Shown piece after piece: positions 46,924 through 60,230 of a stretch of 64,000 bases of DNA. The notes under the pieces were generated by a model that saw only the letters and a program-made list of their open reading frames with translations, made no database searches and was not told where the DNA came from. The stretch's first letter is position 1; each line of letters opens with the position of its first letter. Made by a program: the position numbers and the translations under genes. Origin of the DNA: Serinibacter arcticus (lineage in GTDB: Bacteria; Actinomycetota; Actinomycetes; Actinomycetales; Beutenbergiaceae); the NCBI RefSeq assembly GCF_003121705.1, contig NZ_PYHR01000002.1:3534001-3598000 (forward strand), given 5' to 3'.

Positions 46924-49900
46924 GTGACTCACGTGCGAGCACGACGAAGCGCGCCCACGGTCCGCACCCGGACCGCCCGAACCACGGACGCCCCGACCGG
47001 GCGTTCCCGTCCCGCCCGCGAACCCGGGTCTCTGCGGCGCCGCAGCCTCGGGGCCGCGCTCGCAGCGGCGATGCTCCTGAGCGGCAGCGCCGGTCTCGCG
47101 GCGGCCGCCCAGGCGACCCCGTCCGACCCCGTCGGTGAGGCCGGCAGCGGGGGTGACGTGGCTGCGGCCGCCGCCGTCCGCACGTTCACCCTCGTCGGCA
47201 GCCTCCAGTCCGAGCTCGGCTGCGCCGGCGACTGGGACCCGACCTGCGGTGCGACGCTGCTGGCGGAGACCGCCACCCCCGGCGTCTACGCCGCCGACTT
47301 CGAGGTCCCGGCCGGGTCCTGGGAGTACAAGATCGCCGTCGACGGCGCCTGGGACGAGGCCTACGGCCTCGAGGGCGGCGCCGAGAACGCCCCGCTGACG
47401 CTGGGCGGCACGACGACGCTGCGCGTGACGTTCGACGACACCACCAAGCGCGTGGGCCTGACCCCGCTCGGGCTGGCGGGGGAGTACACCGCCACCGACG
47501 ACGCGATCGTGGCCGAGCCGGTGCGCCAGGAGGGTGCGGACGAGACCTTCTACTTCGTCATGGCCGACCGGTTCGCCAACGGCGACACCACGAACGACAC
47601 GGCCGGGATCGCCGGCGACCGGCTCGCGCACGGCTTCGACCCGACAGACAAGGGCTTCTACCAGGGCGGCGACCTCGCCGGGCTGCACGAGAACCTCGAC
47701 TACATCGAGGGCCTCGGCGTCAGCGCGATCTGGCTCACGCCGTCGTTCGAGAACCGCCCCGTCCAGGGCGAGGGTGCGGGCGCCAGCGCCGGGTACCACG
47801 GCTACTGGATCACGGACTTCACCCAGATCGACCCGCACCTGGGGACGAACGCCGAGCTCGAGGCGCTCATCGACGACGCCCACGCCCGGGGCATCAAGGT
47901 CTACTTCGACATCGTCACCAACCACACCGCCGACGTCATCGAGTACGCCGAGGGTGAGTACGGCTACGTCGACCAGGCGACCTCGCCCTACCTCGACGCC
48001 GACGGCGCCGCGTTCGATCCCGCCGACTACGCCGGGACCGACGACTTCCCCGAGCTCGACCCGGCGACGTCGTTCCCCTACACCCCGGTGATCGACGCCG
48101 ACGTCGCGGACATCAAGGTGCCTGCCGTCCTCAACGACCCGACGCTCTACCACAACCGCGGCAACTCGACCTGGTCCGGGGAGTCGGTCACGTTCGGCGA
48201 CTTCGACGGCCTCGACGACCTCATGACCGAGCACCCCGTCGTGGTCGACACGATGATCGACGTCTACAACGCGTGGGTCGACCTCGGCATCGACGGCTTC
48301 CGGATCGACACCGTCAAGCACGTGAACATGGAGTTCTGGGACGTCTTCACCCAGGCCGTCTCCGAGTACGCCACGTCCCAGGGCCGGCCTGACTTCTTCA
48401 TGTTCGGCGAGGTCTACGACGCCGACCCGAAGCTGCTGAGCCCGTACGTCCGCGACACCGACATGGACTCGGTGCTGGACTTCACGTTCCAGCAGCAGGC
48501 GATCTCCTACGCGTCGGGCAACTCGCCCTCGGCGCTGGCGTCGCTGTTCGACGGCGACGACTACTACACGACCCCCACCACGTCCGCGTCGGCGCTGCCG
48601 ACCTTCCTCGGCAACCACGACATGGGGCGCGCGGCCTACTACCTGCGCCTCACCGACGACCCGCTGCAGCGCACGACGCTCGCGCACGAGCTCATGTACC
48701 TGACGCGCGGCCAGCCGGTCGTCTACTACGGCGACGAGCAGGGCTTCGTCGGTGACGGCGACCTCGGCGGTCGTGACAAGGACGCGCGCCAGTCGCTGTT
48801 CGCCACCCAGGTGCCCGAGTTCGCGACGCAGGAGCTCGTCACGGGCGAGGTCGCCGGGAGCGTGGACCGCTACGACACCGACGCCCCGCTGTACACCCTG
48901 ATCGCCGACCTCTCGGAGCTGCGGGCCTCGTCGCCCGCGCTCTCCACCGGCGCCCAGATCGAGCGGCTCGTCGACGGCGACGCGGGGGTCTACGCGTTCT
49001 CGCGCGTCGACCGGGACGACAAGGTCGAGCACCTCGTGGCCACCAACACCTCGGCCACCGACCGCACGGTGACCGTCCCGAGCCTGACGGCGGACGCGAC
49101 GTTCGCGCCCCTGTACGGGACGACGGCGACGGCCACCTCCGACGCCGACGGCGCCGTGATCGTCACCGTCCCGGCCCGCTCCGCCGTCGTCCTCGTGGCC
49201 GACGGCGAGGTCACGGCCCCGGCCGCGGCCTCGGCGATCGCGTTCTCCTCGCCCGCCGCCGGCGCGGCCGTCACCGGGGTCTCCCCGGTCGCCGTCGACG
49301 TCGACGACTCCTGGCGCGAGACCTCCTTCGCGTGGCGCGTGGTCGGCAGCGACGGGTGGACGCCGCTCGGCACCGCCGAGGACACCGACCCGCGCGTCTT
49401 CCACACCACGAGCGACCTCGCCACCGGCACCCTCGTGGAGTACCGCGCGGTCACGGTGGACGCGGCCGGGGCGGCCTCGGCCGTCTCGACCTTCGCCTCC
49501 GTCGGCAACGACGTCACGACGACGGAGCCCGGCGGCCCCGAGGAGCCGACGTTCGACTCGATCGCCGTGCCCGGTACGCACAACTCCGAGATGGGCTGCG
49601 CGTCCGACTGGCAGCCGGACTGCGCCGCGGCCGGGCTCACGCTCGCGGCCGACGGCATCTGGAAGGGCACGTTCGACCTCCCGGCCGGCGACTACGAGTA
49701 CAAGATCGCCGCGAACGGCAGCTGGGACGTCAACTTCGGCGTCGGCGGCGTCCCCGGCGGCGCCAACGCCCTCTACACGCACGGCGGCGGGCCGATCACG
49801 TTCTTCTTCGACCCGGTGACCAAGCAGTTCAGCAACACCTCCTCGGGTCCGGTGATCACTCTCGCCGGCAGCCTGCAGACCGAGCTCGGCTGCACGTCCG

Positions 49901-52900
49901 ACTGGGCGCCCGACCAGATGTGCGGGTGGCTGACCGACTCCGACGGCGACGGCACCTACACGTTCTCGACCGCCGACCTGCCCACGGGCGCGTACGAGGT
50001 CAAGGTGGCCCACGGCCTGAGCTGGGCCGAGAACTACGGCCTGAACGGCGTGCGCGACGGGGCGAACATCCCCTTCTCCGCGACCGAGGGCAGCGTGACG
50101 GCGTTCTCCTACGACATCGCCACGCACCTGCTGACCATCACGGTCGAGGACCCGCCGCTGCCCGGCACCGGACAGCTGCAGGCGCACTGGGTCACGCAGG
50201 ACCTGCTGGCCTGGCCGAGCACGCTCGGCGCGCCGGCGGCCGGGGCGACCTGGACGCTGCACCACTCGCCCGACGCGGGTCTCGCGGTCGGCGACGGCGG
50301 GATCACCGGGGGCGACGACGTCGCCCTGAGCGTGGTCGCCGGCGGGCTGCCGGCCGACGTGGCCGCACGGTTCCCGGCGCTGGCGGGCGCCACGGTGCTG
50401 CGGGCCGACGGACTCACACGTGAGCAGGCCGCGGCGATCCTCACCGAGCAGGTGTGGGTGGCGCAGTCCGTCGGGGGCGACCTCACGGCGGCCACCGGCG
50501 TGCAGGTGCCGGGCGTCCTGGACGACCTGTACGCGGACGCCGTCACGGACGCCGACCTCGGACTGGTCTTCGACGGCGACGCCGCGGCCGCGACGCTGTG
50601 GGCGCCGACGGCGCAGGACGTCGTGCTCCTGCGCACACCGGTCGGCGGCAGCGAGGCCGAGGTCCCCGCGACCCTCGACCCCGCGGCCGGGGTCTGGGAG
50701 ACCGCGGCGGTCCTCGCCGTCGACGACACCTACCGCTGGCGCGTGACCGTGTACGCGCCCAGCACGGGCGCCGTCGAGACGAACGAGGTGACCGACCCGT
50801 ACTCGGTCGCGCTGACGACCAACTCGACCGCGTCCGTCGTCGTCGACCTCGACGACTCCTCGCTCCGCCCGGAGCAGTGGGAGGAGACGGCTGCCCCGAT
50901 CGTCGAGCGGTCGGTGGACCAGACGATCTACGAGCTGCACGTGCGGGACTTCTCCATCGGTGACGCGACGGTGCCGCAGGACGAGCGCGGCACCTACGCG
51001 GCCTTCACCCGGGAGGACTCCGACGGAATGCAGCACCTGGGGGAGCTGGCGGACGCCGGCATCACCACGGTGCACCTGCTGCCCACGTTCGACATCGCCA
51101 GCATCGAGGAGGACCGGGCGGCCCAGACCGTCCCGGACTGCGACCTCGAGGCGCTCTCGACGGCAGATCCGGCCGGTGAGGCGCAGCAGGCGTGCGTCGG
51201 CGCGCAGCGCGACACCGACGGCTACAACTGGGGCTACGACCCGTACCACTTCCTCGCACCGGAGGGCAGCTACGCCGCCGATCCCGAGGGCGGGGCCCGG
51301 GTGGAGGAGTTCCGCGCGATGGTCGGCGGGCTCCACGCCGAGGGCCTCCAGGTCGTGCTCGACCAGGTCTACAACCACACGGCGGCCTCGGGCCAGGCGG
51401 ACAGGAGCGTCCTGGACCGGGTCGTGCCCGGCTACTACCACCGGCTCGACGCGGCAGGCGCGGTCCAGAAGTCCACGTGCTGCGAGAACATCGCCACCGA
51501 GCACGAGGTCGCGCAGAAGCTGATGGTCGACTCCGTGGTGCTGTGGGCGCGGGACTACCGCGTCGACGGCTTCCGGTTCGACCTCATGGGCCACCACAGC
51601 AAGGAGAACATGCTCGCCGTGCGGGCCGCCCTCGACGAGTTGACGCTCGAGGAGGACGGGGTGGACGGCTCGTCCATCTATCTCTACGGGGAGGGGTGGA
51701 ACTTCGGTGAGGTCGCCGACAACGCGCTGTTCGAGCAGGCCACCCAGGGCCAGCTCGGCGGCACGGGCATCGGCACCTTCAACGACCGCCTGCGCGACGG
51801 CGTCCACGGCGGAAGCCCCGTCGACGGTGCCTCGACCTTCGACCAGGGCTTCGGCACCGGGCTCGCGGGCGACCCGAACGGTCGGTCGCGCACCGGTGAG
51901 GCCGACCTCGGGGGTCTGACGGACCTCGTGAAGATCGGGCTGGTGGGCAACCTGGCCGACTACACCCTCACCGCCTCGGACGGCACGGAGAAGACCGGTG
52001 CCGAGCTCGACTACCGGGGCTCCCCGGCCGGCTACGCCACGCAGCCCGAGGAGACGATCAACTACGTCGACGCCCACGACAACGAGACGCTCTACGACCT
52101 CGGGGTCTTCAAGCTGCCGACCGACACGACCATGGCCGACCGGGTGCGGATGAACACGCTCTCGCTGGCCACGGTCTCGCTCTCGCAGTCGCCGTCGTTC
52201 TGGCACGCCGGGACGGATCTGCTGCGGAGCAAGTCGCTCGACCGCGACTCCTACAACTCGGGCGACTGGTTCAACCGGATCGACTGGACGGGCACCGAGA
52301 ACACCTTCGGGTCCGGACTCCCCGGGGCGTGGGCGAACGAGGAGAAGTGGGACGCGATGCGTCCGCTGCTCGCCGACCCCGCGCTGAAGCCGTCGCCGGA
52401 CGCCATGGCGAGCGGATCCGCGCAGGCGCTCGACCTGCTCCGCGTCCGCAGCGAGGTCGACCTGCTGCGCCTCGGCTCGGCCGAGCTCATCGAGCAGAAG
52501 GTCACGTTCCCCGGGAGCGGGACGGGCGCCCCGGAGGGCTGGATCGCGATGCTCGTGGACGACACCGTCGGCGCGAGCGTCTCCGACGACCTCGACGCGG
52601 CGCTGGTGCTGTTCAACGCCTCGCCCGAGCCGATCACGCAGGTCGTGGACGGTCTGGCCGGACGCGAGCTCGCCCTGACCACGGCCCAGGCCGAGGGCAG
52701 CGACGACGTCGTGCGCACCACGACCTGGGACCCGGCCACCGGCACGGTGACGGTGCCCGCCCGGACCGTGGCGGTGCTGGTCGAGAAGGCGGGGGAGACG
52801 GCTCCGACGTTCACCGACGTGGACGAGGACAACCAGTTCTTCCTCGAGATTACGTGGCTCGCGACGGAGGGCATCTCCACCGGCTGGGAGGACGGGACCT

Positions 52901-53364
52901 TCCGCCCGCTCGAGCCGGTCGCCCGTGACGCGATGGCGGCGTTCCTGTTCCGGATGCTGGCCCCGGAGGACTACACGGCCCCGACGACGTCGCCGTTCGT
53001 GGACGTCACCGTGGACAACCAGTTCTACAGGGAGATCGCGTGGTTGGCGGATGAGGGCATCTCGGCCGGCTGGGTCACCCCGGCCGGCCGGGAGTTCCGC
53101 CCGCTGGCGCCGATCGCCCGTGACGCGATGGCGGCGTTCCTCCACCGCGCGGCGGACTCGCCCGCGGTGACGCTGCCGGCGACGTCGCCGTTCGTGGACG
53201 TCAGCCCGGACAACCAGTTCTACGAGGAGATCGTCTGGATGCAGTCCACGGGGGTCGCCACGGGCTGGGTCGGCAACGACGGCCGGAACCTGTACCGACC
53301 GCTGGCGCCGGTCGCGCGCGACGCGATGGCCGCGTTCCTGTACCGGTACGCGCACCTCGACTGA
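46924..53364 (+). CDS. Secreted bifunctional alpha-amylase / type I pullulanase with SLH-like C-terminus
   Basis: 2146 residues. Twin-arginine-rich signal region to about residue 62. X25-type module (about 85-175, SELGCAGDW). First GH13 domain, alpha-amylase type: DIVTNHT (329), GFRIDTVKH with nucleophile D462, acid E496 in FGEVYD, D566 in FLGNHD. Two more X25 modules (about 878-975 and 977-1075). Pullulanase N2-like HWVTQDLLAWP (about 1085) and CBM48-like ATLWAPTAQDVVL. Second GH13 domain, pullulanase type: DQVYNHT (1480), GFRFDLMGHH with D1553, E1590 in YGEGWNFG, D1719 in VDAHDNE. Three SLH-like repeats (about 1960-2146). Both active sites look complete. It should cut alpha-1,4 and alpha-1,6 bonds of starch or glycogen at the cell surface. 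GTG start at 46924. Confidence 0.93.
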   Translation: MTHVRARRSAPTVRTRTARTTDAPTGRSRPAREPGSLRRRSLGAALAAAMLLSGSAGLAAAAQATPSDPVGEAGSGGDVAAAAAVRTFTLVGSLQSELGCAGDWDPTCGATLLAETATPGVYAADFEVPAGSWEYKIAVDGAWDEAYGLEGGAENAPLTLGGTTTLRVTFDDTTKRVGLTPLGLAGEYTATDDAIVAEPVRQEGADETFYFVMADRFANGDTTNDTAGIAGDRLAHGFDPTDKGFYQGGDLAGLHENLDYIEGLGVSAIWLTPSFENRPVQGEGAGASAGYHGYWITDFTQIDPHLGTNAELEALIDDAHARGIKVYFDIVTNHTADVIEYAEGEYGYVDQATSPYLDADGAAFDPADYAGTDDFPELDPATSFPYTPVIDADVADIKVPAVLNDPTLYHNRGNSTWSGESVTFGDFDGLDDLMTEHPVVVDTMIDVYNAWVDLGIDGFRIDTVKHVNMEFWDVFTQAVSEYATSQGRPDFFMFGEVYDADPKLLSPYVRDTDMDSVLDFTFQQQAISYASGNSPSALASLFDGDDYYTTPTTSASALPTFLGNHDMGRAAYYLRLTDDPLQRTTLAHELMYLTRGQPVVYYGDEQGFVGDGDLGGRDKDARQSLFATQVPEFATQELVTGEVAGSVDRYDTDAPLYTLIADLSELRASSPALSTGAQIERLVDGDAGVYAFSRVDRDDKVEHLVATNTSATDRTVTVPSLTADATFAPLYGTTATATSDADGAVIVTVPARSAVVLVADGEVTAPAAASAIAFSSPAAGAAVTGVSPVAVDVDDSWRETSFAWRVVGSDGWTPLGTAEDTDPRVFHTTSDLATGTLVEYRAVTVDAAGAASAVSTFASVGNDVTTTEPGGPEEPTFDSIAVPGTHNSEMGCASDWQPDCAAAGLTLAADGIWKGTFDLPAGDYEYKIAANGSWDVNFGVGGVPGGANALYTHGGGPITFFFDPVTKQFSNTSSGPVITLAGSLQTELGCTSDWAPDQMCGWLTDSDGDGTYTFSTADLPTGAYEVKVAHGLSWAENYGLNGVRDGANIPFSATEGSVTAFSYDIATHLLTITVEDPPLPGTGQLQAHWVTQDLLAWPSTLGAPAAGATWTLHHSPDAGLAVGDGGITGGDDVALSVVAGGLPADVAARFPALAGATVLRADGLTREQAAAILTEQVWVAQSVGGDLTAATGVQVPGVLDDLYADAVTDADLGLVFDGDAAAATLWAPTAQDVVLLRTPVGGSEAEVPATLDPAAGVWETAAVLAVDDTYRWRVTVYAPSTGAVETNEVTDPYSVALTTNSTASVVVDLDDSSLRPEQWEETAAPIVERSVDQTIYELHVRDFSIGDATVPQDERGTYAAFTREDSDGMQHLGELADAGITTVHLLPTFDIASIEEDRAAQTVPDCDLEALSTADPAGEAQQACVGAQRDTDGYNWGYDPYHFLAPEGSYAADPEGGARVEEFRAMVGGLHAEGLQVVLDQVYNHTAASGQADRSVLDRVVPGYYHRLDAAGAVQKSTCCENIATEHEVAQKLMVDSVVLWARDYRVDGFRFDLMGHHSKENMLAVRAALDELTLEEDGVDGSSIYLYGEGWNFGEVADNALFEQATQGQLGGTGIGTFNDRLRDGVHGGSPVDGASTFDQGFGTGLAGDPNGRSRTGEADLGGLTDLVKIGLVGNLADYTLTASDGTEKTGAELDYRGSPAGYATQPEETINYVDAHDNETLYDLGVFKLPTDTTMADRVRMNTLSLATVSLSQSPSFWHAGTDLLRSKSLDRDSYNSGDWFNRIDWTGTENTFGSGLPGAWANEEKWDAMRPLLADPALKPSPDAMASGSAQALDLLRVRSEVDLLRLGSAELIEQKVTFPGSGTGAPEGWIAMLVDDTVGASVSDDLDAALVLFNASPEPITQVVDGLAGRELALTTAQAEGSDDVVRTTTWDPATGTVTVPARTVAVLVEKAGETAPTFTDVDEDNQFFLEITWLATEGISTGWEDGTFRPLEPVARDAMAAFLFRMLAPEDYTAPTTSPFVDVTVDNQFYREIAWLADEGISAGWVTPAGREFRPLAPIARDAMAAFLHRAADSPAVTLPATSPFVDVSPDNQFYEEIVWMQSTGVATGWVGNDGRNLYRPLAPVARDAMAAFLYRYAHLD

Positions 53365-53648: not shown

Positions 53649-56282
53649 TCAGAGCTGCTGCAGGCGGAACAGGAACGCGGCCATGGCGTCCCGCTTGACG
53701 CTGCTCAGCGGCTGGAACGTGCTGCTGCCGTCGTTGCCCTGCCAGCCGGTCGCGATCCCCGACTCGTAGAGCCACGCGATCTCCGTGTAGTACCGGTCGG
53801 AGAGTGCGACGTCCGTGAAGGGCGACGTGGACGGCGCCTGGTAGCCGGACCCGGCCGCGTACCGGTACAGGAAGGCCGCGATGGCGTCCCGGGCGATCGG
53901 CTCGAGCGGTCGGAAGGACCGGGTGCCGTCGGCGTTCTCCCAACCGGTGGAGATGCCGGCCTCGTGCAGCCAGGCGATCTCCGTGTAGAACTGGTTGCTC
54001 GTGCTGACGTCCACGAACGGCGAGACGGCGGGTGCGGTGTAGCCCTCGACGTCGGCGGCGCGGTAGAGGAACGCGGCCATCGCGTCACGCGCGACCGGGG
54101 TCAGCGGACGGAAGGTCGCCGTTCCGTCGGACTCGGCCCAGCCCGTGGCGATGCCCTCGTTCACGAGCCACGCGATCTCCTGGAAGAACTGCGAGCCGCG
54201 CGGGACGTCGGTGAACGCCGGAGCGTCGTAGGACAGCCCGTGCCGGTAGGTGAAGAGCGGGTCGGCCGTGTCGTTGGGCAGGTCGGAGGCCTGCGCGGCG
54301 ACGTCCGCCATGCTCGAGGGCAGCTCGAACGGGAGGGTGCCCTCCGGCTCGGCGTCGCCGACGATCACGTTCAGCAGCGCCTCGTCCGACGCTCCGTAGT
54401 GGGCCAGGACGGCGGAGGAGTGCTCCACGACGTCGCCCAGGATCAGCGAGCGCGAGAGCTGCGGCAGTGCGATCGTCACGGCGCCGGCGTCGTGCGCCGC
54501 GAGCAGCGCCTGGTGGGCGGGCTCGGTGCCGTTGTAGTCGAGGTTGTAGTAGTTGTCCGGGTCGGCGACCAGGGCAGCCTCGCCGCCGCGCCAGTTGCCG
54601 GCGGGGTCGGTCAGGCGGACGAAGGCGTAGTCGGCCTCGGCCGGGTCCGTCACCGGCACGAAGCCGGCCGCGGTCGCAGCCTCGGGCGAGATGCCGTACA
54701 GGTAGGCGGTCGCGCCCGCGGTTCCCGACAGCGGGAGCAGGTCCTCCGAGTTGGTGAGCAGCGTCGTCGAGCGCTCCTGGATGTCCAGGGCGACGGCGCG
54801 GTGCTCGGGGGAGCCGACGACGGCGGTCGCCTCGACCGCGTCGACGTACGGGTTCTCGAACAGGCCCAGCAGGAACTTCTGCTCGACGACCCGCTCGGCC
54901 GCCTCGGAGACGCGCTCCTCGCTCAGCAGCCCGGAGGTGACGGCATTGACGATGTTGACGGGCTGGTCGGCGCCGCCGATGACGTCCGTGCCGGCGTTGA
55001 TGGCCTTCGCGTAGCGCTCGGTCACCGTCGCGGAGTCCATGCCCCACGGGGTGCCGAAGCCGTCGGAGACGATGTAGAACGGGGTCGGCGGGCGGTTGTT
55101 CGTGCAGGAGACCGGGCCGCAGGTCTCGGTGATCGCCCAGTCGGAGGTGACCACGCCGTCGAAGCCGTAGTCCTCGCGCAGGAGATCCTGCAGGAGGTAG
55201 GAGTTGAAGCCTGCGCCGACCTGCTCCAGCAGCGTGCCCTCGAGCTCGAGGTTCTGCAGGATCGAGTAGGTGGGCATGATGCCGGCGGCTCCGGCCTCGA
55301 ACGCCTTCTCGTACGCGACGACGTGCTCGTCGAAGTTGTTGCCGGGGAACGTGGCGTACCGGCCGTAGGAGTAGTGGCTGTCGTAGCCGTTCGCCTGGGC
55401 GCCGTAGCCCACCCAGTGCTTCACGACCGTGGCGACGCCGTCCGAGGCGAGCTCGGTGTCGCTGCCCTGGAGGCCGCGCACGTAGGCGCCGACGTGCTCG
55501 CCGGCGGAGACGCCCTCGGAGCCGAACGTGCCGTTGGCACGGGTCCAGCGGGGCTCGGTGGCGATGTCGGCCTGCGGGGAGAGGGCCTCGCGGATACCGA
55601 CGGCGACGTACTCCTCGCGGATGATCTCGGCCATGGCCTCGGTGGCCTCGACGTCGTCGAGCCCGCCCATGCCGATCGCGTCGGGGAACTGCGTGAACGA
55701 GCCGCTCGTGACCGAGACACCGAAGGAGTCGGTGAAGCCCGAGCGCGGGTCGGTGCTGATGAGGACGGGGATGCCCCAGTCCTCGGCCTCCGCCAGCTCC
55801 TGCAGCAGGTTGTGCTGGTCGGCGAGCTGCGACGTCTCGGGCGACATGCGCGAGATGTAGGTCGAGATGTGACGCTGCTGCAGCATCGTCTTGAACCCCA
55901 CCGACGGCCCGAACGGACCGACGCCGTCCTCGAGCGCGTAGGTGTCGGGCGCGCTGCTGGGGGAGGTGAGGCTGGCGTGCATGAGAAGGCCGGCCTTCTC
56001 GGCCAACGTGAGCCGCGAGACGAGGTCGGCCGCGCGCTCCTTGTCGGTCAGGCGCCAGTCCTCGTACGGCGTCAGGTCGCCGCTGTGGTCGAGGTCGCGG
56101 AACTGCAGGCCGTCGACGGTGAGGATCTCACCGCTCCGGCTGCCGAGCTCGGGCTGCTCCACAGCGGGTGCGGGGGCCGCCACAGCTGCGGGGACCGAGG
56201 CGGCGAGGGGGAGGGCGACGGCAACGGCCGCCAGGGCTCCCAGCCTCCGGCTGGTCAGGATCTTTCGGGTTGACGAATCCAT
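53649..56282 (-). CDS. Secreted glycoside hydrolase family 3 protein with SLH-like C-terminus
   Basis: 877 residues. Signal peptide (LGALAAVAVALPLAASVPAAVAA). GH3 N-terminal barrel with VLISTDPRSGF, TVVKHWVGYG (conserved K-H), and DGVVTSDWAIT with the nucleophile aspartate; GH3 C-terminal sandwich with STTLLTNSEDLLPL and GTLPFELP. Three SLH-like repeats (about residues 690-877) with the F-x-D-V...EIAWL...GWxxx-F-x-P-L-x-P-x-x-R-D-A-M-A-A-F-L pattern. Predicted exo-beta-glycosidase (glucosidase or related) kept at the cell surface; exact specificity unknown. ATG start at 56282 with AAGGA. A conserved spaced palindrome upstream is shared with the ROK gene. Confidence 0.9.
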   Translation of the reverse strand: MDSSTRKILTSRRLGALAAVAVALPLAASVPAAVAAPAPAVEQPELGSRSGEILTVDGLQFRDLDHSGDLTPYEDWRLTDKERAADLVSRLTLAEKAGLLMHASLTSPSSAPDTYALEDGVGPFGPSVGFKTMLQQRHISTYISRMSPETSQLADQHNLLQELAEAEDWGIPVLISTDPRSGFTDSFGVSVTSGSFTQFPDAIGMGGLDDVEATEAMAEIIREEYVAVGIREALSPQADIATEPRWTRANGTFGSEGVSAGEHVGAYVRGLQGSDTELASDGVATVVKHWVGYGAQANGYDSHYSYGRYATFPGNNFDEHVVAYEKAFEAGAAGIMPTYSILQNLELEGTLLEQVGAGFNSYLLQDLLREDYGFDGVVTSDWAITETCGPVSCTNNRPPTPFYIVSDGFGTPWGMDSATVTERYAKAINAGTDVIGGADQPVNIVNAVTSGLLSEERVSEAAERVVEQKFLLGLFENPYVDAVEATAVVGSPEHRAVALDIQERSTTLLTNSEDLLPLSGTAGATAYLYGISPEAATAAGFVPVTDPAEADYAFVRLTDPAGNWRGGEAALVADPDNYYNLDYNGTEPAHQALLAAHDAGAVTIALPQLSRSLILGDVVEHSSAVLAHYGASDEALLNVIVGDAEPEGTLPFELPSSMADVAAQASDLPNDTADPLFTYRHGLSYDAPAFTDVPRGSQFFQEIAWLVNEGIATGWAESDGTATFRPLTPVARDAMAAFLYRAADVEGYTAPAVSPFVDVSTSNQFYTEIAWLHEAGISTGWENADGTRSFRPLEPIARDAIAAFLYRYAAGSGYQAPSTSPFTDVALSDRYYTEIAWLYESGIATGWQGNDGSSTFQPLSSVKRDAMAAFLFRLQQL

Positions 56283-56304: not shown

Positions 56305-56330
56305 TCTCGGGGTCGGGGGTGCCCCGAATG
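56305..56330 (-). promoter_or_regulatory. Candidate ROK-regulator operator upstream of the GH3 gene
   Basis: Coding-strand CATTCGGG-N8-GACCCCGA (56330-56307), 25-48 bp before the GH3 ATG. Arms and spacing are identical to the site at 57875-57898. Confidence 0.6.
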
Positions 56331-56520
56331 GAACAGTAGGCACGGTGTTCTGCGGGCGCAAGGTTCAGATGGGACCTGATCGCCGGTGCGGGCGAGCGCG
56401 GCACGCCGGTCGGCGAGCCCGCCAGCGGCGGGAATCCGGGGTCGACGGGGCGGCGGAGCGGTCAGGGCATCCCGACCAGGTGGTTGAGATTGAGCGGCGT
56501 GTCGCGCTCGCGTGTCGCGG

Positions 56521-57810
56521 TCAGGCGCGCAGGAAGCCGCGGTACACCAGACGGTTCTCGGAGCTCCGGGGGAGGTGCCGGCCCGCGCTCTCCGCCTCGT
56601 ACTCGTGACCGAGCGCCACATGGCCCGCACGCACGAGCGCTCCCACGAGCGGCGCGCTCGCGACCGACGCCGAGATCACCCGCACGCCTCGCGCCACCAC
56701 CGGCTGGGTGTGCCGCTCGATCGCCGCGGCGAGGCCCTCGTGATAGGCCGGGTGGGCTCCCAGCAGGTCCCCTCCGACGACGACGGCCTCGGGGTTGAGC
56801 ACGTTGCACGTCGCGGCGACGACGCTGCCCAGGGTGGACCCCGCCTCGCGCAGCACCCGAGCGCTCACCTCGTCCCGGAAGTCGGCGATGCCGCGGGGGT
56901 CGTCCGGTCCGGCGTCGTTGACCTGACGCAGCCGCCGCAGGATCTCGACGGCGTTGACCATCACCTCGACGCACCCGTGCTGCCCGCAGCGGCACAGCGG
57001 GCCCATGGGGTCGACCTGGTTGTGGCCGATCTCGCCGGCGTAGCCCGCGTGGCCGGAGTAGACGCCGCCGCGCAGCACGAGGCCGGCGCCGACGCCGCGC
57101 GAGACCTCGAGGTAGAGGAAGTCCTCCAGGTCGCGGCCGACGCCGGTGAGGCGTTCCGCCCACGCGGCGAGGTTGGCGTCGTTGTCCACGTGGACCTGAC
57201 GCCCCAGCCGACGTCCCAGCTCCGTGCGCACGTCGATCCCCGACCAGGCCGTCAGGACGCTCGGGCTGCCGACGGTGCCCGTGTCGTGGTCGATCGGACC
57301 CGGGAGGGCGGCAACCACGGCGTCGACGTCGGGGGCGTCCGGATCCCGACGGGCCAGCAGCCGGACGAACAGGTCGGCGGCGACGTCGAGCGATCGGGCG
57401 GGGGCCGCGCCCGGGGCCACCTCGGCCTCGAGGTGGTCCGTCACCTGCGCCAGCATGTCGCCCAGGGCCACCTCGACACGGTCGTGCCCGAGTCGGACGG
57501 CTGCGAGCGCGACGTGCGGGAGGACCGGGAAGAGGAGGGCCGGCCGGCGGCCGCTTCCGGTCCGGTCGGGCTCGCCCGTCCCTTCCTCGGCGAGCAGCGA
57601 GTCGGCGATCAGCTCCGCCACGACGGTCTTGACGGTCGAGCGCGACAGGCCCGTCTCGATCATCAGGTCGGCCCGCGTGGTCCCGGGGCTGGCTCGGACG
57701 ATGGCGGCGATCCACTCGCGGTTGCCGGCTCGGCGCTCGGCGCTCCTCGGGCCCGACGACAGGCGTCCCGGGTCGAAGCCGGGCTGGTTCGGTGCCGTGC
57801 GCGGGGGCAT
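56521..57810 (-). CDS. ROK-family transcriptional regulator (NagC/XylR type)
   Basis: 429 residues. N-terminal winged helix (EWIAAIVRASPGTTRADLMIETGLSRSTVKTVVAELIAD), then the ROK sugar-kinase-like domain with VHVDNDANLAAWAE, the zinc site GEIGHNQVDPMGPLCRCGQHGCVEV and NPEAVVVGGDLLG. ATG start at 57810 with GAGAGGA; upstream in-frame codons belong to the next gene on another frame. It follows the GH3 gene's promoter side and the two share an operator, so it probably senses a sugar released by that enzyme and represses both. Confidence 0.9.
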   Translation of the reverse strand: MPPRTAPNQPGFDPGRLSSGPRSAERRAGNREWIAAIVRASPGTTRADLMIETGLSRSTVKTVVAELIADSLLAEEGTGEPDRTGSGRRPALLFPVLPHVALAAVRLGHDRVEVALGDMLAQVTDHLEAEVAPGAAPARSLDVAADLFVRLLARRDPDAPDVDAVVAALPGPIDHDTGTVGSPSVLTAWSGIDVRTELGRRLGRQVHVDNDANLAAWAERLTGVGRDLEDFLYLEVSRGVGAGLVLRGGVYSGHAGYAGEIGHNQVDPMGPLCRCGQHGCVEVMVNAVEILRRLRQVNDAGPDDPRGIADFRDEVSARVLREAGSTLGSVVAATCNVLNPEAVVVGGDLLGAHPAYHEGLAAAIERHTQPVVARGVRVISASVASAPLVGALVRAGHVALGHEYEAESAGRHLPRSSENRLVYRGFLRA

Positions 57811-57874
57811 GTCGGTCCTCTCGTTCACGGCTCCGATCGGCCGGTGCAGTCGTTCCACTCTAGGGCGGAACACG

Positions 57875-57902
57875 CATTCGGGTTCACCGTGACCCCGAAA
57901 TG
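57875..57902 (-). promoter_or_regulatory. Candidate ROK-regulator operator upstream of its own gene
   Basis: CATTCGGG-N8-GACCCCGA plus AATG, 65 bp before the ROK ATG. It overlaps the last codons and stop of the upstream DUF4031-HD gene. Confidence 0.6.
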
Positions 57903-58849
57903 CCTCCCGCGGGTCGGTCGCGCAGCGCCACGACCTCCGCGCGCAGGTTGGCCCGCGCGCGTGCCTCCCATCGCACGTGGGCCGCGGCGGTGACGAACAC
58001 CTCGCCCTCCAGCAGCCGGTCCAGGATCGCGGCGCGCGCCGGAGCGAAGACGTCGTCGGCCACGTGGGCGTACTCCTGACGGATGCCGGCGGCGTAGTCG
58101 GCGTAGCGCGGGGCGTCGGCCCCGAGCACCGCCAGGTCGGCATCGCTCAGCAGGGCTCCGGCCCTGTCGTCGGGCGCGACCTCGTGCGTCGCGGTCAGTC
58201 GCACGAGCCGTGCCACCTCCGCGGCGTCGCGATCACCGTCGAGCATCTCGAGCGCGAGCGCCGCCGAGGCCTCCTCGTCGTCCACCAGCGCGTCGCCGAC
58301 GGGCACGGCCTCCCGCCGTCGGCCCGAGGCGTGCACGGCGTCGTGGAACCACGCCGCGAGCAGCGCCGTGCGCACGGTCCGCGGCGCTGCACGCTCGGCC
58401 AGGGCGAGGTCAGCGACACCGTCGAGCACCTCGCGCAGGTGGGTGCGGCCGTGGTGCAGCCGACCCGGCTCGGACCACCTGGCCAGGAGGTTCGCGCCGA
58501 CGGCCTCCCAGGAGACGGACCCCGAACCGTCCGACGGGCCGGTGGCCAGGCCGGCCCAGTGCTCGCGCAGCCAGGCGTCCTCGGCGAGGCGGCGCCGCTC
58601 CGGGTGGCGCAGCCCGCCGGCGACGAGCCGGCGGATCAGGTCCCGCCCCGACACGGGCGCGGCGCCACGGGCGACGAGCTCCGCGTGGCGGGACGCCGGC
58701 ACGTCGTAGTGGTCGACGTCGAACGAGCGCGCCGGCACCCCCGCCAGCGCGGCGAACGTGTGCAGCTCGGCCAGCGAGGTGTCCGAGACGAGGTGCGACC
58801 ACAGGGTGCCGTGCGCGGGCCACGCCGGGGGATCGACGAGGACGGCCAC
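57884..58849 (-). CDS. DUF4031 - HD-domain fusion protein
   Basis: 321 residues. The first 90 are DUF4031 (VLVDPPAWPAHGTLWSHLVSDTSLAELH...DHYDVPASRH). The remainder is a metal-dependent phosphohydrolase-like HD-superfamily domain (COG4339 type) with HHGRTHLREVL, AAWFHDAVH and a C-terminal YADYAAGIRQEYAHV...R-x-x-IL segment. The HD dyad and following histidine suggest metal binding. Substrate unknown. GTG start at 58849. The C-terminal half is paralogous to the protein at 59267-60172. Confidence 0.82.
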   Translation of the reverse strand: MAVLVDPPAWPAHGTLWSHLVSDTSLAELHTFAALAGVPARSFDVDHYDVPASRHAELVARGAAPVSGRDLIRRLVAGGLRHPERRRLAEDAWLREHWAGLATGPSDGSGSVSWEAVGANLLARWSEPGRLHHGRTHLREVLDGVADLALAERAAPRTVRTALLAAWFHDAVHASGRRREAVPVGDALVDDEEASAALALEMLDGDRDAAEVARLVRLTATHEVAPDDRAGALLSDADLAVLGADAPRYADYAAGIRQEYAHVADDVFAPARAAILDRLLEGEVFVTAAAHVRWEARARANLRAEVVALRDRPAGGISGSR

Positions 58850-58905: not shown

Positions 58906-59199
58906 TCACGCGATCGTGAAGAGCCTCGTCGCATTGGTCTCGGTGTCGGTGTACTGCCGGGCGGCGTTGTCGAGCGCGAGCGCGATGGCGTCGAGGTTCG
59001 CCTCCACCTGCGACTGCGTGCCGCGCCACTGCGCGGCCAGGGCCGCGAACTGGGTGGAGGCGGACCCCTGCCAGGTGGTCTCGAGCGACGTCAGGTGCGT
59101 CATCATCGCGGCGACCTCCGCGGAGATGGTGGCGCCGGACGTGCGGGTGCTGCGGGCTGCGGTGGCGACGGCCTCGGCGTCGACGGTGTATGCGGTCAT
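58906..59199 (-). CDS. Orphan WXG100 (ESAT-6-like) protein
   Basis: 97 residues, all-helical, with the hairpin motif TTWQGSASTQF (W-x-G) near the middle. WXG100 proteins are exported as helical-hairpin dimers by ESX/type VII systems. ATG start at 59199 with GAGGAGGA. There is no EccC ATPase, second WXG100 gene or LXG toxin in the window, so its export route or partner must be elsewhere. Confidence 0.87.
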   Translation of the reverse strand: MTAYTVDAEAVATAARSTRTSGATISAEVAAMMTHLTSLETTWQGSASTQFAALAAQWRGTQSQVEANLDAIALALDNAARQYTDTETNATRLFTIA

Positions 59200-59266: not shown

Positions 59267-60172
59267 CTAGGAACGCGGGTCGGGTCGCGGGGAGCGTCCG
59301 AGCGTGGAGGTGGACCCGTCGTCGAACGGCGAGGCTGGGGACAGTCCGTCACGGGGACCACGCGCGGAAACCCGGGTGACGATCGACTGGCCGTCGAGCA
59401 CCGCGGCCTCGGCATCGGCGTCAGGCCCCTGCGAGGCTGCTTCCACGCGCTCGAGCTCCGAGCTGAGCTTGGACAGCTCGGCGGTGATGTTCTCCCGCGC
59501 GGGCTCCTCCCACTGGCGGCCCATCGGCGAGCAGAAGATCTGGGGCCGGGAGACCAGCTTGCGCAGGATCGCGATCCTGGCCTCGAGGTAGTCCTCGGCG
59601 GGGATGTGCGCGTACTCGGCGCGGATGTTCTTGCGGTACGCCGCGTACTTCTGAGGCTCGCACGCCAGCCCCGCGAGGTCGGCGTCGCTGAGGGCCTGGG
59701 CGTCGACGTCGACGGTGGAGGCCGAGTGGCGGTGGATCTGTGCGATCAGCGTCGCGATGCGCTCGACGGTCGCGTCCGCGACGCCGATGGCCGGGAGCTC
59801 ACGGCGGGCCCGCTCGGCGCTCGCCATGGTGTCCTCCCCGCCCTTGTGCGCGTAGGAGGCGCGGGCGAGGGCGGTGAACTCGGCGCCGTGGTACCAGCCG
59901 GCGACCCGCACGACGTCGGGGTCGTGCGTCTCCTCGGCGAGCTGGTCGATGCTGGCCAGGACGTCGACGAGGTGCTTGATCGCGTGGTGGAACCGGTCGG
60001 GGCTGGACCAGCTCGCGATCAGGGCCTCGGCCACCGCGGCGATCTCGTCGGTCGGGGCGTCGGCGCCGATCGCCTTCGCACTGCGCGTGAAGGCGGGGAC
60101 CAACCACTGCGGCGCTTCGATCACGCCCATGACGCCCATCCAGTTCTGTCTCGGGACCTGAGCGGGAGCCAT
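59267..60172 (-). CDS. HD-domain phosphohydrolase-like protein
   Basis: 301 residues. Metal-dependent HD-superfamily fold of the COG4339 type: SSPDRFHHAIKHLVDVLASI, VAGWYHGAEFT (histidine but not the usual HD), ASYAHKGGEDTMASAERA, then SDADLAGLACEPQKYAAYRKNIRAEYAHIP, closely matching the DUF4031-HD fusion. A 60-residue Ser/Pro/Asp-rich tail follows. The second metal residue is glycine here (YHG instead of FHD), so it may be catalytically altered. ATG start at 60172. Confidence 0.75.
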   Translation of the reverse strand: MAPAQVPRQNWMGVMGVIEAPQWLVPAFTRSAKAIGADAPTDEIAAVAEALIASWSSPDRFHHAIKHLVDVLASIDQLAEETHDPDVVRVAGWYHGAEFTALARASYAHKGGEDTMASAERARRELPAIGVADATVERIATLIAQIHRHSASTVDVDAQALSDADLAGLACEPQKYAAYRKNIRAEYAHIPAEDYLEARIAILRKLVSRPQIFCSPMGRQWEEPARENITAELSKLSSELERVEAASQGPDADAEAAVLDGQSIVTRVSARGPRDGLSPASPFDDGSTSTLGRSPRPDPRS

Positions 60173-60230
60173 CGTAGCCCCGCGGCCGACGGGTCGCGTC
60201 ACGTCGTTCGGAGGCCGCCTCGTCCGCGGG

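Follow-up and report, generated by a model that had tools for sequence, protein, structure and literature searches.

The genes and sites at the locus

The window is a stretch of 64,000 nucleotides from Serinibacter arcticus. A gene for a ROK-family regulator and a neighbouring gene for a GH3 glycosidase are both found on the reverse strand, and each is preceded by a short candidate operator, termed site A and site B. The features are the following.

53649 to 56282, reverse strand: GH3 glycosidase with SLH repeats, 877 amino acids (PF00933, PF01915 and SLH; a signal-like N-terminus is read by eye)
56306 to 56328, reverse strand: site A, TTCGGGGCACCCCCGACCCCGAG, a candidate operator for the glycosidase gene, whose ATG is 23 bp downstream
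56333 to 56361, reverse strand: putative GH3 promoter, TTGCGC-N17-TACTGT, placed by eye
56521 to 57810, reverse strand: ROK-family regulator, 429 amino acids, with an N-terminal winged-helix region and a C-terminal ROK domain
57857 to 57862, reverse strand: putative −10 element of the ROK gene, TAGAGT, placed by eye
57877 to 57899, reverse strand: site B, TTCGGGGTCACGGTGAACCCGAA, a candidate operator for the regulator gene, whose ATG is 66 bp downstream

The glycosidase displays both GH3 domains, the N domain (PF00933) at E 1.5e-41 and the C domain (PF01915) at E 1.4e-09, with 38.7 bits against 31. Its best solved relative is the beta-glucosidase 9ul7 (E 2.7e-113), followed by SN243. The SLH-type C-terminal module (53649 to 54212) is one of many: with 39 candidates scored per genome, at least 36 matches are found in the same genome, the GH3 protein included, and at least 33 and at least 39 in two genomes of the same genus. 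A convergent pullulanase gene (46924 to 53364) also ends in an SLH-type module (52786 to 53364).

The ROK domain of the regulator is clear (PF00480, E 1.6e-45, 156.3 bits against a cut-off of 22.9). The helix-turn-helix match of the protein itself is weak (HTH_24, E 0.014, below the cut-off), but HTH_24 is matched at E ≤ 0.01 by 20 of the 22 aligned family members, and the alignment of the family profile with the solved Mlc and Lmo0178 proteins runs through the helix-turn-helix and over nearly the full length. From these comparisons the regulator is predicted to carry an N-terminal winged helix-turn-helix, and its domain order is that of Mlc and NagC of Escherichia coli and Lmo0178 of Listeria. 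Residues G262, H263, C273, C275, G276, G279 and C280 are invariant in the 22-row alignment, E260 is nearly so and EIGH is retained; we take E-x-G-H to be the sugar motif and C-x-C-G-x2-G-C the zinc motif of the ROK family. The protein misses the NCBIfam equivalog cut-offs for NagC (133.4 bits against 650) and Mlc (115.4 against 530). An AlphaFold model, made from 3 sequences, has a pLDDT of 42.6 and is too poor to use.

The start of the ROK gene at 57810 is picked by eye, with GAGAGG before the ATG. Beyond this start the reading frame continues without a stop through site B as far as 58143, and strictly speaking the gene could be longer and run through the site. As the original prediction stated, site B is embedded in the end of the preceding gene, a DUF4031 gene at 57884 to 58849 on the reverse strand. 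The product of this gene, in addition to its DUF4031 domain, displays 34% identity over 198 aligned positions to the product of 59267 to 60202; between the two genes, at 58906 to 59199, is a gene for a WXG100 (type VII secretion-like) protein (E 4.9e-16).

Sequence, symmetry and rarity of the two sites

The pair was originally described as two copies of an asymmetric motif, CATTCGGG-N8-GACCCCGA, that agree at 19 of 26 positions and stand before the GH3 and ROK genes. A scan of the window finds the motif exactly at 56307 to 56330 (reverse strand) and 57875 to 57898 (forward strand), and a count by eye gives the same 19 of 26 identities. The two sites thus carry the motif on opposite strands, yet both genes are on the reverse strand. 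Site B, TTCGGGGTCAC-G-GTGAACCCGAA, is an almost perfect inverted repeat of 23 bp, in which 10 of 11 pairs are complementary. Site A, TTCGGGGCACC-C-CCGACCCCGAG, has the same outer arms in the same register and is without the inner symmetry. The unit common to both is TTCGGG-N11-CCCGAA, which site A carries with one mismatch. This 23-bp inverted repeat describes the pair better than the asymmetric motif does and, being palindromic, explains the opposite strands. Reading the pair as ROK operators that define a local regulon and a binding motif is still the best reading, based on position, palindromy, the N11 spacing, rarity and the neighbouring ROK gene; the motif itself is rewritten as TTCGGG-N11-CCCGAA.

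The identity of 19 in 26 is not significant alone, as it is reached by 155 of 1000 paired dinucleotide shuffles. It is commoner still in pairs of real segments, with 1099 hits in 2500 attempted draws, the true denominator being below 2500 since draws near the locus were skipped. Identical arms of the form 8-N(0 to 14)-8 are found in 1 of 1000 shuffles and 62 of 4000 real pairs; when one copy must also be palindromic (at least 10 of 11 pairs), none of the 4000 real pairs qualifies. Within the window, nine matches to CATTCGGG-N8-GACCCCGA at up to three mismatches, one of them site B on its other strand, compare with 1.61 expected and are reached by none of 100 shuffles, but this excess is given no weight because shuffles lose codon structure. 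The true significance of all these motif tests is lower than the counts imply, as the motif was chosen by eye from 64 kb.

These counts bear on an unlikely alternative, in which site B alone is an operator, for ROK autoregulation, and the likeness of site A is a coincidence in GC-rich sequence. The symmetry of site A in its outer arms only and the frequency of such identities and split arms by chance are consistent with it. On the other hand, a one-mismatch palindrome is expected only about 0.001 times in the 238-bp GH3 leader, by arithmetic from the genome density, and the start codon of the neighbouring glycosidase gene follows site A closely.

Across the genome (4,057,797 bases), ATTCGGG-N8-GACCCCGA occurs exactly twice, at sites A and B only, and the reversed-pattern control not at all. 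One mismatch adds two places, 428273, which is inside a coding-like frame (as judged by a simple filter of GC by codon position), and 3752423. The latter copy (3752423 to 3752445; G000:C2; L034, L138) is flanked by two divergent frames that by eye seem GAF-like, and is possibly a third site or a chance occurrence. The palindromic unit TTCGGG-N11-CCCGAA has one exact copy, site B, and 20 copies at one mismatch, which include site A, against 8 for the control. Eighteen of the other 19 are in coding-like frames and one (2182021) is in a hairpin-flanked gap. This place (G000:C2; L120), outside coding-like frames, displays an inner palindrome, GGTTGCGACGCAACC, and on either side of it hairpin-forming GAGGCCCTTC sequence. 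The pattern TCGGGK-N9-MCCCGA is found at 8 places (control, 2): sites A and B, four places in coding-like frames and two outside them, 2182366 and 3752425, the second between the two GAF-like frames. These two may be further sites.

No second match to the full consensus of site B is found in the genome at up to three mismatches, and site A therefore departs from it by more than three. A shorter 22-mer pattern with three mismatches gives 1030 + 995 = 2025 matches against 366 + 388 = 754 for its control and is uninformative. Abundant random copies had been named at the outset as evidence against an operator; they are few for the split motif when exact or at one mismatch, and many at three mismatches. 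Strict matching in the genome reveals no further clear member of the regulon.

Placement relative to promoters and to known ROK systems

The putative GH3 promoter would give a transcript start near 56326, inside site A, and the −35 region that belongs to the putative ROK −10 element would fall inside site B. Both placements are by eye and are inferred, because a strict sigma-70 consensus scan finds no promoter before either gene. Either one, site A at the start or site B over the −35 region, suits repression.

Inverted repeats in leaders might instead work as RNA hairpins. Both sites are inverted repeats, and by eye site A is between the putative transcript start and the ribosome site. However, folding is barely better than that of shuffled sequences (z −0.94 and −0.70, with 38 and 49 of 200 shuffles folding equally well), and site B is upstream of the putative start of the ROK transcript. 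Action as RNA rather than as protein sites is highly improbable.

Control of glycosidase genes by ROK proteins is known. CsnR of Streptomyces lividans is a ROK repressor whose palindromic operator precedes the gene of an extracellular glycosidase, although the target is a chitosanase and not a GH3 enzyme (PMC3048496). BglR of Thermotoga maritima regulates beta-glucoside use, including laminarinase and beta-glucosidase; it differs in belonging to a remote phylum and in an operon with transporters, and its reported effectors are cellobiose and glucose (PMC3750489). For AraU of bifidobacteria, also a ROK regulator, a motif is predicted in the region common to AraU and its divergently transcribed target (PMC5928203).

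With respect to the sites, RokB of Streptomyces coelicolor, another actinobacterial ROK regulator, binds TTTGTTC-N11-GAACAAA at novH, an inverted repeat with the N11 spacing found here, and measured sites are also reported before its own gene (PMC4856308). The arms differ from those here, the native RokB sites are described as having A-rich ends and a different centre, and the role proposed is in amino-acid metabolism (PMC4856308). The arms of ROK sites are reported as T-rich/A-rich (PMC4856308; PMC2580772), as are the operators of Mlc and NagC (PMC2580772), whereas the TTCGGG/CCCGAA arms are GC-rich. A published description of a TTCGGG-N11-CCCGAA operator was not found among the titles listed.

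The departure from T-rich/A-rich arms, together with 11 ROK-type matches to the regulator in its own genome, the query included, is consistent with a further alternative, in which both sites are real but are bound by another regulator, for example a ROK paralogue or a LacI-type protein. This is quite unlikely: the genome has no other exact sites, as expected of a purely local regulator encoded at the locus.

Relatives of the regulator and of the ROK-GH3 arrangement

ROK homologues are present in all 59 of the near genomes searched, the genome of origin included, but none reaches E ≤ 1e-60 in 23 other genomes of the family. In the searches of the order and the class, the rows listed cover 4 scored first-look candidates for each genome. 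Among the matches listed, six other homologues reach E ≤ 1e-58 in 396 genomes of the order and no other reaches 1e-64 in 394 genomes of the class, a draw that seemingly does not hold three loci of genus g45 that surpass 1e-64 in the order search. A search of contigs adds two loci (L065 and L066) of 36 to 37% identity.

The three nearest homologues found, those of genus g45 (37 to 41% identical), are divergent to a GH3 gene at all three loci, and these GH3 genes have the two domains in the opposite order to that in the gene studied here. No GH3 gene is seen near the other three of the six homologues from the order (L106 to L108) or near the two contig loci (L065 and L066), within flanks of unequal length. 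This control is weak, as most homologue loci have flanks of only 1.5 kb, and with such flanks (L097 to L099) the GH3 neighbour of the three g45 loci is missed too.

The sites themselves are not seen to be conserved. Upstream of 37 homologue loci, with strands taken from tblastn, the best likeness to the TTCGGG/CCCGAA arms is 9 of 12 positions, compared with 12 of 12 here, and no motif-like repeat is seen by eye in the three g45 leaders. At up to two mismatches, TTCGGGNTCACNGTGANCCCGAA is matched in 27 of 396 genomes, the genome of origin included (control, 0 among the matches listed); all 26 places in other genomes are in coding-like frames, and no ROK homologue (tblastn E ≤ 1e-3) is within about 1.5 kb of them. 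The genomes sampled yielded no close orthologue before which the motif is retained, and phylogenetic footprinting therefore lends no support. The putative recognition helix, read by eye, is SRSTVKTVV here and SRSTVAGAV, SRSTVNQAV or SRSTVNQSV in the relatives paired with GH3. It appears that the ROK-GH3 neighbourhood recurs and that the operator sequence does not, the putative helix differing as well.

Three divergent ROK-GH3 intergenic regions (L103, L104 and L105) display a TGGGARCGSTYCC-like palindrome, which resembles the cellobiose operator of CebR. This hints that these pairs belong to cello-oligosaccharide control. A CebR-like site, searched for in the window, gives 5 matches at up to three mismatches, with 7.15 expected, and was rejected.

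The locus is probably a predicted two-gene circuit in which a self-regulating local ROK repressor controls a surface GH3 enzyme. The ROK protein would be a local, sugar-responsive repressor whose dimer binds the 23-bp inverted repeats TTCGGG-N11-CCCGAA. On site B, which would cover the −35 region of the ROK promoter, the dimer would bring about autoregulation; on site A, at the GH3 transcription start, it would repress the GH3 gene. The ligand would be a sugar, probably glucose or a beta-glucoside, that is freed from the substrate of the GH3 enzyme; with this sugar bound to the ROK domain, the dimer would leave the DNA and allow the surface enzyme to be made. The arrangement is an ordinary one, a regulator of known type with predicted sites before its own gene and a neighbouring gene, and general understanding is unchanged. 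It can be suggested only tentatively that the operator code of this ROK regulator, TTCGGG-N11-CCCGAA, is GC-rich, in contrast to the reported T-rich/A-rich arms, and that the regulator serves a private circuit of one repressor and one surface-anchored GH3 enzyme.

The prediction is precise and cheap, consisting of one regulator, two 23-bp sites and one surface enzyme. If the sites are bound, a GC-rich recognition sequence, tied to the putative recognition helix SRSTVKTVV, would be added to ROK operators, and the sugar in control of a surface glycosidase would be indicated. If the circuit is real, the ROK gene found in another family beside a GH3 gene of different build would mean that ROK-GH3 pairing is either kept or gained repeatedly, with turnover of the operator sequence.
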